Positions 2,254-32,828 of a stretch of DNA of 32,828 nt are shown here, in pieces (position 1 is the stretch's first letter; every line of letters begins with the position of its first letter). This DNA is from an uncultured Saprospirales bacterium. GTDB lineage: Bacteria; Bacteroidota; Bacteroidia; Chitinophagales; Saprospiraceae. The notes under the pieces were generated by a model. It worked only from the letters and a program-made list of their open reading frames with translations, made no database searches and was not told the DNA's origin. The stretch covers positions 1 through 32,828 of the forward strand of contig CAJXUU010000020.1 in the NCBI GenBank assembly GCA_913061325.1. Direction: 5' to 3'. The position numbers were made by a program, and so were the translations under genes.

Positions 2254-3000
2254 TTATAAGAGGCCCAATACAATGGCCGATGCAGATACTGTTGAAGTAA
2301 GAGGTATGATAATCGAAACTCTTTTATCGAATTCTTTGTAGCTTTTAGATGGAACAATTACGATATCACCAGGGTGCAACTGAATGTTCTTTTGCAAAAA
2401 AATACCCGCCTCAGTTAAATCGATATTAACCACTCTTACATCTGGTCCTTCTTGACGTAGAATTTTTACGCATTCCAAGTTTGCATAGAAATCAAAACCA
2501 CCCGTTTGAGCAATCATATCAAGTAGAGTATTCCGATCTGTATCTACCTTAATAACCCCAGGATTTTTAACTTCTCCTAACACTGTAATCTCCTTATTCA
2601 AAATCTTAACATCTACGATCGGTGTTTTTATCCATCTTTGGAATACACCTCTTAATGTATCTTTCAATTCTACTACTGTTTTACCCTCGACTCTTGTAGT
2701 GCCGATTTTTGGAACCTCGATACATCCTCTTGCATCTACCATCAACCATTTACCATAAACCTCATTAGAATTGTAAATGCCATAGACTGAACCTACACTG
2801 AGTTCATCTTGGCCCCAAACACTAATATTTACTTTATCATATTTTCTTATTGTGTATTCATAATCTGGATTATGAAAAAAGGTACTGTCAATTTCCAATT
2901 TGGAATCTTGCAATTCTTCTTTTGATTCTATAAAAAGATTCTGAGTTTTGCATGAAACTAAAAGTAGCAACATGCTCAAAAAACCTAAATAGTTTTTCAT
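2254..3000 (-). CDS. Wza-like polysaccharide export outer-membrane lipoprotein (poly_export + SLBB)
   Basis: This is an outer-membrane channel component for exported polysaccharide, the partner of the Wzc-like protein just downstream. The 248-residue product has a lipoprotein signal with lipobox LVSC, giving a lipidated Cys17. Next come a Poly_export domain beginning at YTIRKYDKVNISVWGQDELS (about 49-130) and an SLBB strand (ITVLGEVKNPGVIKV, about 138-152). A hydrophobic C-terminal segment (about 228-248) resembles the membrane anchor of this family. It is shorter than E. coli Wza (about 380 residues), as is usual for Bacteroidota homologues with a single SLBB domain. It lies 9 bp from both neighbours, so it is surely co-transcribed with the response regulator upstream and the co-polymerase downstream. 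Confidence 0.92.
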   Translation of the reverse strand: MKNYLGFLSMLLLLVSCKTQNLFIESKEELQDSKLEIDSTFFHNPDYEYTIRKYDKVNISVWGQDELSVGSVYGIYNSNEVYGKWLMVDARGCIEVPKIGTTRVEGKTVVELKDTLRGVFQRWIKTPIVDVKILNKEITVLGEVKNPGVIKVDTDRNTLLDMIAQTGGFDFYANLECVKILRQEGPDVRVVNIDLTEAGIFLQKNIQLHPGDIVIVPSKSYKEFDKRVSIIIPLTSTVSASAIVLGLL

Positions 3001-10184: not shown

Positions 10185-13100
10185 TCACTGTTTAATAAAG
10201 CGCCCCGTTTTTACTATACCCAAAGCATCTTTATAGCGGATAAAATATCCTCCAGCTCCAAGTGTAGATATATCAAGATGATTTATTTTACTATCAGCTT
10301 CGAAGTTATAAATTTGTACACGCTTCCCCGAATCACTTATTACATCAATGTGAATAACTCCTCGTTCTTTTATTTCTCCAGTCTCGTAAACATCATCATT
10401 GACTAAATAACATTCTATTAAATCAATACCAGGGTTTGGAAATATATTTAAAAAAAAATCATCTGGAAGATTCTCAACTAGATTTATTGTATTCAAACAT
10501 TCATTAGTTTCTAAGTAAGGATTATAATCAAACTGGATTGAGGCTTTATTTATAATTTCACTTCCATTCGCAGCTCCTTCTTTAGCCATAATACTGTATT
10601 CAATAAAACCATGTGATTCAGATTCATTGTGCAAACTATCTAGCAAATTGATATCTCTAAAATACCATTCTAAAATATTTCCTTCCAATATGCGAAATAT
10701 ATGGGCATGGCTTACAATCCCAAGTTCTAAACTTATAAGATCCAAAAATTCTGGGAGCGTGTCAATCACTTTAACAAAAGACGCAGGATAATTTCCAACA
10801 TTTTGAAATCTAATTTTATACCTCAATCGAGTGTCGGGTTTTATAAGGTGACTAGAACCTACGCCATGAGGAGAGACTAAAATATCATTAGGATCTAAAG
10901 ACCCTACTATCATTTCTATCAAAGCCTCTGAATTATTATTATAATCAACTTCATCAAGTGATGTTCCAATATTTACAGTAATACTTTTTTGATCTCCTAA
11001 ACTTGCGTTGAGATCTACATAGTTCATTAGGTTTATAACCTTAGTTTCTCCAGCTAGTAAAGTATCTATATTCCAATAATAAATACTCCCTATTTGGTCA
11101 TCCCATGCTATTGAAGCAGACGCAAGAGATAAATCAGCATCAAATTCTAAATCCACTGTAGCGTCAAAAACATCCTTAGTACCCATATTTGAAATACTAA
11201 TCACCATTTCATTTTCAAACCCTCTTCGTAACACTGTAGTGCCTAAACTTATAGACAAGTCAGGTTTATCCTGAATGGCCAAATTTGGAAAATCAAATCC
11301 TGATAGTACCTGACCTACACTTGTTACGTTAACATTATGTGGATTGGGCTGACATATAGACTCATAATTCTCTGGAATATCCTGTTGAATATTATAAGAC
11401 CCTACAGGCAAAGAAATTTCATAATATCCACTATCGTTCGAAATCGCATAAATGGACCCAGAGCTTATAATTATCATCGTATTTGATATTGGCAATTCGC
11501 CTTCATCCTTAGTACAATTACTATTTGCGTCATGGTACAGATGTCCGCTAACTAAAGCGCCATCATCTTCTTTAATACTTAAAAATTGATCCGCAGAGAT
11601 GCTATCCATTGTTTGAACATATCCACTTGGCCAATGAACAACAACTGATATAACAGCCGTAGCATCCGATAACCCGAAGTGCTGGCTAAGTGTACTCTGA
11701 CTACCTGGACCACCTCCTGTCTGTCCCATTACCTCTCGCATTACTGTAGTATTAACGCCGTCAATAACAGCATTAACGTAAATTCGTGCCCCAATTGCAG
11801 AACGATTTGAATTGGTGCCTTCTAAACGTATTATTAAATAATGACCAGTTGCCAGATTGTTCACAAATACTCTATTACTTTCACTGCTATGGTTGGAAAT
11901 CACTAAATCTATATCACCATCTAGCTCAAGGTCTGTGGATGCAATTGCAAACGAATTGCCAACTGGACTGACAAATGGAGAGTCGGTAACTTTTCCAAAC
12001 GTACCATCTCCATTGTTCATATATAAAAACTTAGACCCATCTAAGTCATTCATTACCGCTAGATCAAGCCAACTATCATTGTCCAAATCTGCCCATACTG
12101 AACCATGCGAATTCCCTTTATCTTCTGCAACCCACCCAGTAATTACTTTTGTAAAATTTCCATTCCCATCATTTGTATAAAGAAAATTATGTTGATCAGA
12201 AGCATTGGCAACAAAAAGATCCAAGTCCAAGTCATTATCAAAATCTCCAAAACTTGCACCAACAGAATTACTTAGGTCACCCATTTCAATAGCGGAAAAA
12301 GACGTTCCTTCTTGATTAATGTATAAGACATTTGAAGTACCGTAATTGGGAATAAAACAATCAGACCAACCATCATTATTTACATCTGCCCAAATGGCTC
12401 CAATACTATTACTAGCTTCAGAAACAATCTCAAGACCATATGTTAATTCCATTGTTCCATCTCCCCTATTGCGGTACAATTGATTGAAATTTGTACCGAA
12501 ATAATCTGAAGTAAAAATATCTAACCATCCATCTCTATCAAAATCAACAAAACAAACATTGTGAGTATAGCCATCTGCCAGACCGATCAACGCACTACTT
12601 TGATTTACGAACGTCTGGTTATTATTCTTATAGAGTTGAATTGGATCTCCTACATTGTTAGCAATTACAACGTCTATTTGTCCATCATTATCAAAATCTC
12701 CCCAGGATGATGCCACCGTTGGAAAGAGATCATTCACCAAGTCCCCGCCCAGATGTTCTGTAAAGCTTCCAGACCCATCATTTAAAAATAATTTATTTTT
12801 GACAGTATCTACATAGGCTGGGACGAAAATATCATCATAGCCATCATCATTGAAATCTACCGCTGAGATACCCCAACTGTTCATCGAGACATTTACAACT
12901 GGATCATTTGTCAATTCTTGTAACGGTGGAGCTTCTGCACAATCAGAGTCTGCAGCATCAATATATCCATCCCCATCATTGTCAATGCCATCTGCACAAT
13001 CAGTTTCTAAGGTAGTTAAAGGCAAAGAAGTAACACATTCTGGATTTATATAAATAACAGGTGTATTAGTATTAACCGCTCCAGCTGTAGAAAGCTGTTT

Positions 13101-14393
13101 ACCAGCTAAAAACACACCCGCTCCGGCACTACATGCTCCGGCATGGGAAATGAAATTTCCTTTCACCACAGAGGCAGCTCCTATATTCACTGCACCAGTA
13201 GCAACGCCTGCTCCTCCAATCCAAAAAATATTACAACGCCTCGCCCCATTAGTTAATATCATTTTTGATAGTGCCGCTATATTAAATGCCCCGGCAACTC
13301 TCACAACAAAGATTGCATCAGGGTCACCTTCAGCATCAAGAGTAATAAGTCCTGATAAAGCCGCAGCTGAAAAGATATCGTACACCCCAGGAGTAAGTGT
13401 TTCATTAAGAAAAACTGCAGTATGTGTTTCAGTAGCTGGCAACATCATAAGAGAACTGTAAGCGAACTCTAAATCTACCACAGCTTGTGCTGTAAGCGCA
13501 TTTGCAATTTCCTGAGTTCCTATGTGAATTCCACTCGCAAAACCAGTGATCGCTCCCGCATTCGTGCCAATATTACCAATAATTCCGGAGGCTCCCGTAT
13601 TTCCGACAATACCTGCACTTGCGAAAAGCGAAAAGTCTGAAAGAACTCCCAATACATCAACAGCAGAAGCAGGATCACAGCTCGATTCACAAAATATTGG
13701 AATCGTACTGGTACAAGAAGGTTTAACTGCCACAGATCCCGCAGCATAAGTTATGACTCCACTCATACTAAACATTCTTCCTTCAAGAAGAACATTTGCA
13801 CCTAGGCCAACAGCTCCTGACTTTGAGAATAAGGTTCCCTTGAGATCAGCACCCGCTCCAATAGAAATAGCTCCATTAACTAGCCAGAAAATATTACAAG
13901 ATTGAACGCCACCAGTTAAAGTAATTGTTGCACCTGCCGTCCCGGTAAGTGCCCCATTCATCTTGATTATAAAGAAAGCATTGGGGTCACCTCCACCATC
14001 AAGCGTAAGAGAACCACCTATACTCCCAGCACTTGATATGGAATAAACGCCCGGATCAAGAACTTCGCCACCTCCAAAAGTAGGTGAATGAGTGCTAGGA
14101 AAGTCAACAAAAAGATCATTAAGATGGATGTATAATCTAAGTAAATCTTTACTAGCCTGATCCGTTACAGCATCACTACTATATGTATTACCATCATAAG
14201 ATCCTATTACTGAACCCAAATGGGTGCCCACATCTCCAGTAACGGTTCCTCCAGAATTAGTAATGTCTCCTGCTGCAGTAAAAGCTTCAAAAGAAGAAAG
14301 TATTCCTAAATTAGCTGTTTGACTAAAGCTTAGATTTGAAAACAACAATACTAAGAAAGCTGTTAGTGAAAATAACATTAATTTATTTGTCAT
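10185..14393 (-). CDS. Giant T9SS-secreted mosaic: two DUF3494 domains, FG-GAP repeats, UnbV/ASPIC, DUF11-like
   Basis: This 1402-residue cell-surface or secreted protein starts with a signal peptide ending near SFSQ (residue 25). Two DUF3494 (ice-binding-like) domains follow at about 26-225 and 245-450, each with the LGILSSF-type opening and a CNIFW strand. Then come a calcium-binding-type aspartate-rich segment (DGIDNDGDGYIDAADSDC, 468-485) and about seven FG-GAP/VCBS repeats (about 505-845; DFNDDGYDDIF, DFDNDGQIDVV, DFDRDGWLDIF). A UnbV/ASPIC-like domain (about 852-940), an SdrD_B-like domain with HLYHDANSNC (about 947-1035) and DUF11/CARDB-like domains (about 1042-1310; DPNDILVSPHG) complete the middle. 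A type A T9SS sorting domain (FLNIFPNPG to GRFIKQ, about 1327-1402) ends it. A role in adhesion or surface or ice binding is an inference from the domains. Confidence 0.92.
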   Translation of the reverse strand: MTNKLMLFSLTAFLVLLFSNLSFSQTANLGILSSFEAFTAAGDITNSGGTVTGDVGTHLGSVIGSYDGNTYSSDAVTDQASKDLLRLYIHLNDLFVDFPSTHSPTFGGGEVLDPGVYSISSAGSIGGSLTLDGGGDPNAFFIIKMNGALTGTAGATITLTGGVQSCNIFWLVNGAISIGAGADLKGTLFSKSGAVGLGANVLLEGRMFSMSGVITYAAGSVAVKPSCTSTIPIFCESSCDPASAVDVLGVLSDFSLFASAGIVGNTGASGIIGNIGTNAGAITGFASGIHIGTQEIANALTAQAVVDLEFAYSSLMMLPATETHTAVFLNETLTPGVYDIFSAAALSGLITLDAEGDPDAIFVVRVAGAFNIAALSKMILTNGARRCNIFWIGGAGVATGAVNIGAASVVKGNFISHAGACSAGAGVFLAGKQLSTAGAVNTNTPVIYINPECVTSLPLTTLETDCADGIDNDGDGYIDAADSDCAEAPPLQELTNDPVVNVSMNSWGISAVDFNDDGYDDIFVPAYVDTVKNKLFLNDGSGSFTEHLGGDLVNDLFPTVASSWGDFDNDGQIDVVIANNVGDPIQLYKNNNQTFVNQSSALIGLADGYTHNVCFVDFDRDGWLDIFTSDYFGTNFNQLYRNRGDGTMELTYGLEIVSEASNSIGAIWADVNNDGWSDCFIPNYGTSNVLYINQEGTSFSAIEMGDLSNSVGASFGDFDNDLDLDLFVANASDQHNFLYTNDGNGNFTKVITGWVAEDKGNSHGSVWADLDNDSWLDLAVMNDLDGSKFLYMNNGDGTFGKVTDSPFVSPVGNSFAIASTDLELDGDIDLVISNHSSESNRVFVNNLATGHYLIIRLEGTNSNRSAIGARIYVNAVIDGVNTTVMREVMGQTGGGPGSQSTLSQHFGLSDATAVISVVVHWPSGYVQTMDSISADQFLSIKEDDGALVSGHLYHDANSNCTKDEGELPISNTMIIISSGSIYAISNDSGYYEISLPVGSYNIQQDIPENYESICQPNPHNVNVTSVGQVLSGFDFPNLAIQDKPDLSISLGTTVLRRGFENEMVISISNMGTKDVFDATVDLEFDADLSLASASIAWDDQIGSIYYWNIDTLLAGETKVINLMNYVDLNASLGDQKSITVNIGTSLDEVDYNNNSEALIEMIVGSLDPNDILVSPHGVGSSHLIKPDTRLRYKIRFQNVGNYPASFVKVIDTLPEFLDLISLELGIVSHAHIFRILEGNILEWYFRDINLLDSLHNESESHGFIEYSIMAKEGAANGSEIINKASIQFDYNPYLETNECLNTINLVENLPDDFFLNIFPNPGIDLIECYLVNDDVYETGEIKERGVIHIDVISDSGKRVQIYNFEADSKINHLDISTLGAGGYFIRYKDALGIVKTGRFIKQ

Positions 14394-14461: not shown

Positions 14462-14755
14462 TCAAAAGGAATATATTGGTTCAATCTTAAATATCAACTC
14501 TTTTATGTGTTCGTTAAACATTGAAGCTCCGTAGATACCTGGTGGTAGTCTTTTAAAATAATTAGATCGAAACGAAGTATTACTGCTCACTATAGTACAA
14601 GCTTGAAAATTATTAAAATCGTTATCTATGCGATCTAGAAAACAATCATTATCATCGTCAATTCTATTTTTGCATATTTCTTGAGCAGATATATGGAATC
14701 CAAGACAAATAAAGAGAGCAAGTGCTAGGGATTGAGTACGTTTTATGTTCTTCAT
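14462..14755 (-). CDS. Small secreted protein with Asp-rich calcium-type motif, possibly truncated
   Basis: The 97-residue product has a clear signal peptide (basic start, hydrophobic core, cleavage near ISAQ, residue 25). It is followed by ICKNRIDDDNDCFLDRIDND, a degenerate version of the CxNGIDDDGDGxIDxxDxDC motif that usually opens long T9SS-secreted proteins and is also present in the neighbour at 10185-14393. The rest (FKRLPPGIYGASMF and onward) has no recognised domain, and there is no sorting domain. It may be the N-terminal stump of a once longer surface protein, or a small secreted protein of its own. The gene is separated from the larger one by 68 bp and reads in the same direction. 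Confidence 0.55.
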   Translation of the reverse strand: MKNIKRTQSLALALFICLGFHISAQEICKNRIDDDNDCFLDRIDNDFNNFQACTIVSSNTSFRSNYFKRLPPGIYGASMFNEHIKELIFKIEPIYSF

Positions 14756-14920
14756 AACCTAGAAGGCTTTAAAATCGTACCTATTTTGTAATATACTGAT
14801 TGATAATCTATTATAAATTTCCTATGCTAAATGTTTTCCATAACATAGACCTATTTCCATTAAATGGACAAAATTGAGTGGTGAGTACGATAGGCACTCA
14901 TTCTTTTTGATTATTTTTTT

Positions 14921-15735
14921 TTGAACTATGCTAATATTATTAACAATGTCAAGGTCTTGAAGCTCAGAGTTCCAGAATCATACATCGGTAGAATCCAAGT
15001 TGCAGAATACTTTAGAGCCTTTTTACTGGGTAGACCAGACTGGGCGGCAAAAGATGGAAGGTTATTGAGTTTAGAAAATTTGGGGTATTTAACCGAGAAA
15101 CAGTTCTTGAGGTAGGAAGTTATAATCATAATACAGTTAGAAGAACAGCTGGAGCTAACCATAAAAATGAATACCTACTTATAGATTAAACAAGCTACTT
15201 TATAAAGTAGCAAATCTACCTGATCCTTTGTGCTGGACAGAAGCTCCATCTGACAATGACATGTTAGGCAGACAAAAAAATCGATAAACATGAGACACTA
15301 AAGAATGTCTAAAATTACATAAATCCATGTTTCATGAATAAGAAATTTGGCATTCTAGGATATGTCAGCGCCCCCCATTGGTTAATAGTCCAGTGGTTTG
15401 CTCCATATGTAGAGGCAGGAGAATTAATTTATTTTCCATTATGACTATTCTAGGATTAGCCAATTTTCCATTTTTCTTTGCTCTATTGTTTCCCATATAT
15501 ACTTTCGCAAGCTTTATCAGTATATATTTCATGCTTATTCAAGAGCTCACTTACCATAATTATGAGTCAGCAGCTGATATTCTAGCATTGATAAAAACAG
15601 CACTCTTAGAGCCTTTTCTATATCACCCAAAACCCGTCGTGTAGAATATCAAATGAAATATTGATCATTTCACAGGCAATCATAAGGGATGGGGAGAGAT
15701 GACTCGAAAGAGGTTTAAGAAAGAGGGGGCGTAAA
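14921..15735 (+). pseudogene. Decayed multi-pass family 2 glycosyltransferase (BcsA/PgaC-like)
   Basis: This roughly 815-bp stretch is one broken gene spread over several frames. The order of fragments matches membrane GT2 enzymes: RIQVAEYFRAFLLGRPDW, then FGVFNRETVLEVGSYNHNTV, then LELTIKM (a corrupted GEDMEL region), NLPDPLCWTEAPSDNDMLG, RQKNR followed by a stop where the Q-x-x-R-W tryptophan belongs, FGILGYVSAPHWLIVQWF, a hydrophobic stretch with LLEPFLYHP, and GWGEMTRKRFKK before the final TAA. Between these lie frameshifts and stops. The N-terminal half, including the nucleotide-binding DxD part, is gone. The ORF-track entries at 14921 and 15378 are pieces of it. It may once have made an exopolysaccharide or a glycan. 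Confidence 0.85.
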
Positions 15736-15988
15736 TTACCTTAAAGCCCCAACCCAATATGTCCCTTTACACTAATGTGAATATCTTCAGTATCATAGAT
15801 GCAAGTATAAACCAATATAATATTAAATGTTGAATATAAAACCACGGATATGGACTCGACATTTAACACCTATCAAATATTAGACTCAATATTCTCAGAT
15901 TATAGCTTTCAATTTCCTATTATTGTACTACTCTAGCCACAATTTTCAATTAATAATGTGCAGCTTCAATTGCACTTGGATAATAAAT
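15736..15988 (+). promoter_or_regulatory. Upstream region of the gluconate operon, with two inverted repeats
   Basis: This 253-bp space precedes the gluconokinase fusion gene. It contains TTAAATGTTGA (15823-15833) facing TCGACATTTAA (15856-15866), a 10 of 11 match. A second dyad, GTGCA-N8-TGCAC (15958-15975), ends 13 bases before the chosen start codon, which is a position suited to a repressor or to a hairpin that masks initiation. No transcriptional regulator gene is adjacent. No confident promoter was identified. Confidence 0.3.
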
Positions 15989-17899
15989 ATGAAAGATCAG
16001 ACAATTGATCCAACCGATACTAGAGTCTACTTTATATGTGGAGTTTCAGGTTGTGGCAAAAGCACAGTCGGAAGGGCACTTTCAAAAAAAATAGATCTAC
16101 CATTTTTTGATGGGGATGATTTTCATCCTAAGGAGAATGTTGCAAAAATGGCATCTGGTCAACCACTAGACGATAAGGATCGGAAAAGATGGCTAACAGC
16201 TATTAATAAGCTCATTTCACAATCAGAGGATGGGTTGATCGTAGCGTGTTCTGCACTTAAAGAAAAATACAGAGCACAATTATCAGAAGATATAACAAAA
16301 AAGATTCACTGGATATTTTTAAATGGTGATTTTGATTTGATTTATAACAGAATGATTTCTAGGATTGATCATTTCATGGGCCCTAACTTGCTTCAGTCAC
16401 AGTTTGACATACTCGAAATTCCTAACTATGCGATAGAATGTGACATCAAATACTCTGTTGAAAAGATAGTACAAAACATTAGAATACAAACATTACAAAT
16501 GAAAAAACAACTTGGACTTATAGGTCTTGGAGTGATGGGAAAGAGCCTAGCGCGAAACTTTGCGGACAAAGGTATCAGCCTAAGTCTATACAATAGATTT
16601 GTAAAAGGATCAGAAGACGAAATAGCTAAAAATTTCATTGAGTCCTATCCTGTTCTCGATACAGCGGAAGGACATGAAGATTTACAGGAATTTGTGCAAT
16701 CTCTAAAAACTCCACGAACAGTATTTTTAATGATTTCTGCAGGAGCTGCGGTGGATGACACCATAGAGAAATTGATCCCCTTATTGGATAAAGGTGACCT
16801 AATTATTGATGGTGGAAATTCTCATTATAAACTGACTCAAGAAAGAAACGATAAACTCTCCGCTCATGGGATATATTTCATTGGTACTGGAGTTTCTGGT
16901 GGTGAAGAAGGTGCACTTAAAGGACCATCCATCATGCCAGGCGGAGAACCCGAGGCTTATGCTATCTGTAAGGATGCATTAGAAGCTATAGCGGCCAAAG
17001 ATATAAATGGAGGATCATGTTGTGGCTACATAGGAAAAGGAGGCGCTGGTCATTTTGTGAAAATGGTCCACAATGGAATGGAATATGCCGAGATGCAATT
17101 CTTAGCTGAGATATATGGCTTGCTGAGGTATTCGGCAGGTTATGACACAGACTTTATAGCAAACCTATTCGAGACTTGGACTAAGACTGATCTTAATAGT
17201 TATCTATTAGAAATTACTATAGAAGTATTGAGGAAAAAAGAAGATGATATTCACCTCGTTGATATTATTCTAGACAAGGCTGGTAACAAAGGAACAGGAA
17301 GCTGGACTACCATCGCTGCATGTGAGCTAGGCGTTCCAGTAAACACATTGACCGCTGCATTATTTGCAAGGTATCAGTCCGCATTCAAAGAAGAAAGACA
17401 ATCCGCAGAAAAACTATATGGTAAACAATTTAATAAAAGAGAAATCGATCTTACTTCACTTGCGGATGCGTACAAGGTTGCAAGAATCATCAACCATCAT
17501 CAAGGAATACAACTAATCTATGCTGCATCTGAATCCTATAATTGGAATATAGACATGCCTGAGGTTGCAAGAATCTGGACTAACGGGTGTATAATTAGGT
17601 CCGAATTAATGGAAGACCTAAAAGTGAAACTGAAAGAGGAACCTATCTTACTCAAACATGCAACCTATGTAAATATCGTCAACAATGGTATGGAATCTCT
17701 TAGAAAAGTTTGTTCACAAGCTATACTTTCAGGATCTGCAATTCCATGTCTCAATTCTGCATTGACATACGTCGAGACATATATAAACGAGCAGTCAACT
17801 GCCAATATCATCCAAGGTCAAAGAGATTATTTTGGTGCACACAGATATCAAAGAAAAGATGACCCAATTGGTCCTTCACATCATACAATTTGGAATTAA
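15989..17899 (+). CDS. Fused gluconokinase / 6-phosphogluconate dehydrogenase
   Basis: A single uninterrupted ORF encodes two consecutive pathway enzymes. I start at the internal ATG (MKDQTIDPTDTRVYFICG), 22 codons into the track ORF, because the kinase fold begins just after it; this gives 636 residues. Residues about 12-168 are a GntK-type gluconokinase with P-loop GVSGCGKST (18-26), DGDDFHP and the HFM...QFDILEIP region. Residues 171-636 are a full-length decarboxylating 6-phosphogluconate dehydrogenase. It has GLIGLGVMG at its start, GVSGGEEGALKGPSIMPGG, catalytic K358 and E365 in KMVHNGMEY, and the C-terminal RDYFGAHRYQR signature. The join keeps the normal MKKQLGLIG start of a free dehydrogenase. 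Gluconate would be converted directly to ribulose 5-phosphate. The gluconate permease gene follows 32 bp later. Confidence 0.93.
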   Translation: MKDQTIDPTDTRVYFICGVSGCGKSTVGRALSKKIDLPFFDGDDFHPKENVAKMASGQPLDDKDRKRWLTAINKLISQSEDGLIVACSALKEKYRAQLSEDITKKIHWIFLNGDFDLIYNRMISRIDHFMGPNLLQSQFDILEIPNYAIECDIKYSVEKIVQNIRIQTLQMKKQLGLIGLGVMGKSLARNFADKGISLSLYNRFVKGSEDEIAKNFIESYPVLDTAEGHEDLQEFVQSLKTPRTVFLMISAGAAVDDTIEKLIPLLDKGDLIIDGGNSHYKLTQERNDKLSAHGIYFIGTGVSGGEEGALKGPSIMPGGEPEAYAICKDALEAIAAKDINGGSCCGYIGKGGAGHFVKMVHNGMEYAEMQFLAEIYGLLRYSAGYDTDFIANLFETWTKTDLNSYLLEITIEVLRKKEDDIHLVDIILDKAGNKGTGSWTTIAACELGVPVNTLTAALFARYQSAFKEERQSAEKLYGKQFNKREIDLTSLADAYKVARIINHHQGIQLIYAASESYNWNIDMPEVARIWTNGCIIRSELMEDLKVKLKEEPILLKHATYVNIVNNGMESLRKVCSQAILSGSAIPCLNSALTYVETYINEQSTANIIQGQRDYFGAHRYQRKDDPIGPSHHTIWN

Positions 17900-32466: not shown

Positions 32467-32646
32467 AGCGCATACAAATAGAATGTTGATAATACTTGTT
32501 TTGCTGATTTCTAATATAGTCATTAGGTTAAAGCTCTAATTATTAATGAAACTTTTTGGCTACTAGAATGTTTATTCCTTTCTTTGACAAATAAAAAACA
32601 ATCATACTTGGACATTCGTAATACATATCATTCAATTTGTAAAAAT
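32467..32646. other. Intergenic region between chrA and the last gene
   Basis: No ORF of note, RNA gene or convincing hairpin with a T-run was seen in this A/T-rich 180-bp space. It should contain the promoter of the secreted-protein gene that starts at 32647. Confidence 0.3.
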
Positions 32647-32785
32647 ATGGACGCTCGACTTTTTGCTGCATCTTTATTAATCTTAATTGTATTCCTACCT
32701 AACGTATTAAGTCTCAACAATGAACTTCAATTTGAAATTGAAAAAACCGAACTTGCAGATAGTGAATTTGAGAATGATATTGAAG
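32647..32785 (+). CDS. Start of a secreted protein gene, cut by the contig end
   Basis: An ATG at 32647 opens a frame of about 46 codons of genomic sequence with a clear signal peptide (MDARLFAASLLILIVFLPNV, cleavage near residues 20-22). An acidic segment follows (NELQFEIEKTELADSEFEND). The frame runs on into adapter sequence from 32786, so all residues after DIE are artificial. The function cannot be deduced; it is the N-terminus of an exported protein of unknown length. Confidence 0.6.
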
Positions 32786-32828
32786 CTGTCTCTTATACAC
32801 ATCTCCGAGCCCACGAGACAGGCAGAAA
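32786..32828. other. Illumina Nextera adapter plus i7 index (assembly artefact)
   Basis: The contig ends with the Nextera transposase mosaic end CTGTCTCTTATACACATCT, then CCGAGCCCACGAGAC, the read 2 side of the adapter (34 bases, exact as I know it). Positions 32820-32827 read AGGCAGAA, which is the Nextera index N703, and the final A fits the first base of the next adapter part. This is library sequence, not genome. Confidence 0.98.

Follow-up and report, generated by a model that had tools for sequence, protein, structure and literature searches.

The window, a 32,828-nucleotide stretch that is contig 20 of the assembly of an uncultured Saprospirales bacterium (G000; 5.98 Mb in 555 contigs, 94.8% complete), carries a frameshifted, truncated pseudogene of a membrane family-2 glycosyltransferase (GT2) at positions 14939–15731 of the plus strand, as judged from sequence comparison. 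With little doubt, we propose that the GT2 gene was cut by a rearrangement, that the remainder decayed, and that the polymer system was apparently lost from the lineage. A DNA rearrangement would have removed the first ~213 codons of a processive-type membrane GT2 gene together with the upstream genes of its exopolysaccharide cassette. Frameshifts and stops would have degraded what was left; the proposal sets no order between truncation and decay.

The comparison rests on two genomes of the same genus, G001 and G002. The initial annotation had advised a search for an intact orthologue in related genomes, and both carry one, at L017:9955-11385 (minus strand) in G001 and at L018:528-1958 (plus strand) in G002. 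These genes are open frames of 480–482 codons, or 476–477 codons from the start codon used here, and Pfam places the intact orthologue in glycosyltransferase family 2. Its nearest named relative, at 58%, comes from a Saprospiraceae metagenome assembly, which fits a Bacteroidota genome. The seven fragments from which the enzyme had been rebuilt are all present in the order proposed, and their composite is 68% identical to the intact G001 and G002 proteins (E about 1e-121). The DNA of the remnant is 75–76% identical to the intact genes over about 790 bp, almost without gaps. The translated search that had also been advised supports the assignment. Direct tblastn of the G001 protein on the window places residues 214–293 at 14939–15178 and residues 294–476 at 15180–15728, two adjacent stretches. 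The score is 218 bits, whereas none of 500 dinucleotide shuffles exceeded 23.5 bits.

The remnant is colinear with residues ~214–476 of the 476-residue orthologue. The first ~213 residues are missing, since the homology begins at 14939, residue ~214. The earlier limits change accordingly: the start moves from 14921 to 14939, and the part rebuilt is the C-terminal ~55% rather than two thirds. Single fragments give only a below-threshold GT2 match in Pfam, and the composite gives none. Used as a query, the composite found no match among the genome contigs; an alignment of the intact genes did find matches. No match was found in the plasmid collection searched.

The GT2 homology begins beside a duplicated segment. 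Positions 14471–14934 (minus strand, 464 bp) are 77% identical to G000:C215:2631-3093, a second copy on contig 215 of the same genome that spans a small ORF for a secreted protein and the region upstream of it. The segment's edge at 14934 is four bases ahead of the first GT2-homologous base found by tblastn. Because the homology sets in only a few bases from this edge, a rearrangement probably cut the GT2 gene. In the window, the small ORF (14462–14755, minus strand) lies mostly within the segment and is followed by a gene (10185–14393) whose secreted product of 1402 aa has ice-binding-like, FG-GAP and ASPIC/UnbV domains and a weak type IX sorting domain. The same order, small ORF and then large ice-binding/FG-GAP gene, is found on contig 215. 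A decayed IS4-family transposase is also present on that contig (L004:1411-2100), about 530 bp from the segment copy. At the junction itself, GAACTATGCTAA, which follows a T run, was considered as a mobile-element end; the reading was dropped because near-matches to the pattern were no commoner than those to its reversed control. Weak matches near the junction on contigs C114 and C262 were judged to be AT-rich chance similarity. A chimeric contig join at this point is, strictly speaking, still conceivable; the search of the assembly for adapter sequence gave no match at the junction.

On the other side, positions 15891–15988 (plus strand) are the upstream region of gluconokinase, from the ancestral gnd locus. 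Similarity to the same region of G002 starts at 15891 and extends into the gene (73% over 213 bp), and the downstream junction therefore lies between 15736 and 15891. The order gluconokinase-gnd-GntP-MscS is kept in G001 and G002 on contigs distinct from those bearing GT2. It follows that the remnant is flanked by neighbours foreign to its orthologues. The initial annotation had asked whether the neighbours of an intact orthologue match this locus, and they do not: the flanks are non-ancestral. Response regulator, HEAT-type and YaiO genes surround the intact relatives and are absent beside the remnant. A rearrangement would be the simplest cause of the non-ancestral neighbours. Within the gluconokinase block, a single open frame of 636 aa (15989–17899) covers both gluconokinase and 6-phosphogluconate dehydrogenase. 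A similar fused frame is present in G003, a more distant genome of the same genus, and the two frames are separate in G001 and G002.

The cassette as a whole has probably been lost, since neither the HEAT-type and YaiO partners nor a GT2 N-terminus of the remnant's type has a match in the bacterium's own, 94.8% complete, assembly. Pfam likewise finds no YaiO there, and GT2 and YaiO were similarly not found in G003. The ancestral arrangement has no example in the remnant's species, which counts against our explanation. An alternative is that the remnant is a dead fragment relocated by rearrangement, and that the genome has a working cassette that escaped assembly. The non-ancestral neighbours on both sides are compatible with this, and, because the assembly is incomplete and in 555 contigs, an intact cassette could lie on a missing contig. 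However, the GT2 N-terminus, the HEAT partner and YaiO are all without a match, and the remnant is single-copy in the genome, so that we regard such relocation as unlikely. Under the preferred reading of truncation, decay and loss, the earlier suggestion that the organism's glycans changed is plausible, and it is slightly strengthened as the HEAT and YaiO partners are also not found. The polysaccharide export block is not a few kilobases away, as had been stated. Its Wza/Wzc-like genes end at position 3000, about 12 kb distant and outside the GT2 cassette of the relatives, and the implied tie between the two is not supported.

Alignment to the intact orthologues reveals five single-base gaps in the remnant. 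Read in the orthologue's frame, it also has four stops, which fall at residues 329, 331, 448 and 452 (numbered from the start codon); with ~213 N-terminal codons gone as well, a functional product is prevented. The absent N-terminal part carries the first aspartate motif (VNDGS) and the DxD motif (DVD), and the tryptophan codon of QxxRW (QRNRW in the intact gene) is a stop in the remnant. No enzyme is made from it. Substitutions tell of relaxed selection too. The intact G001 and G002 genes differ at 98 third-position sites, 8 first-position sites and 6 second-position sites. The ratio of position-1/2 to position-3 changes is 0.41 (0.28–0.58) on the window branch versus 0.052 (0.022–0.096) for the intact pair. 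This lineage thus spent part of its evolution under constraint and part free of it.

Two short ORFs without meaning had been predicted here. Only one of at least 80 aa exists in the remnant, an 88-aa frame with a TTG start at 15378–15644 (plus strand), and it is an open stretch left by decay, not a separate gene. It is very improbable that the region has acquired a new function, for instance through this ORF or through an RNA that regulates the gluconokinase gene downstream. The ORF has no interruption, and its product would keep hydrophobic parts of the former enzyme, but for the most part it simply follows the orthologue's frame from one lesion to the next, and it is not known to be independently conserved. 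Least credible of all is that the gene is intact and its frameshifts arose in sequencing or assembly: adapter sequence on many contig ends does indicate imperfect quality control, but error is insufficient because the N-terminal half is found nowhere in the genome and first- and second-position changes are in excess, and moreover the neighbouring genes are long open frames and catalytic motif positions are lost. The assembly holds 296 adapter matches against 0 for the reversed control, and among the matches listed all lie near contig ends. The window itself has one at its end, 32786–32819, CTGTCTCTTATACACATCTCCGAGCCCACGAGAC, which we take to be Nextera adapter, and its last ORF (32584–32826) runs into the adapter (SYTHLRAHETGR).

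In its lost end, frameshifts, stops and relaxed constraint, the remnant shows no notable difference from the common run of bacterial pseudogenes that were truncated at a rearrangement junction. It is an ordinary pseudogene, the product of gene loss in one lineage.

The relatives indicate what the gene belonged to. In G001 (L017), the genes preceding GT2 encode a hybrid histidine kinase, a LytTR regulator, a response regulator, a GlmS-like enzyme, a YaiO barrel and a 271-aa protein. The last occupies the position of the HEAT protein in other relatives; its HEAT-type label rests on that position and on our own profile, since it has no Pfam match. In G002 the cassette loci are L018 and L064. A wider sample comprised 80 loci (L096–L175) of relatives from many Bacteroidota genera, searched with profiles built from a few seeds. 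Near GT2, 76 loci have a HEAT-type protein, 75 have a response regulator and 73 have YaiO, and all three lay within 7 kb in 69 of the 80; these counts are approximate, because the HEAT profile was built from divergent seeds and the fold of the response regulator is common. In some lineages a sulfatase-superfamily protein lies between GT2 and YaiO or is fused to GT2. From their domains, the response regulator, HEAT protein, GT2 and YaiO would together make and export a polysaccharide, with GT2 the likely polymerising subunit of this exopolysaccharide cassette.

Among NCBIfam models, the intact orthologue matches the PgaC/IcaA poly-beta-1,6-GlcNAc synthase (TIGR03937) best, and the two share the build of a membrane GT2 with DxD, GED and QxxRW motifs. 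In contrast, the orthologue's score of 137 bits is far below the equivalog cut-off of 422, and the partners that our search covered are HEAT and YaiO proteins instead of the PgaA/PgaB/PgaD type. A poly-GlcNAc-like polymer is only a guess, from the weak PgaC similarity and the glmS-like neighbour in G001. The YaiO family is present in E. coli, where the YaiO outer-membrane barrel is encoded beside a GT2 (YaiP), as in the cassette. Compared in outline with that locus, the Bacteroidota cassettes have two additional genes, one for a small response regulator and one for a HEAT protein. A full-text literature search, a weak negative, found no paper describing the cassette.

By itself, the remnant is of little importance, as it records one lineage's gene loss. 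The conserved cassette in Bacteroidota is the more interesting by-product. It is tempting to propose, tentatively and at somewhat less than even chances, that the remnant marks the loss, specific to this lineage, of an exopolysaccharide synthase-export system that is widespread in Bacteroidota and apparently undescribed, composed of response regulator, HEAT, GT2 and YaiO and joined in some lineages by a sulfatase-superfamily enzyme. A natural loss beside close relatives that keep the cassette offers a useful contrast for identifying its polymer.
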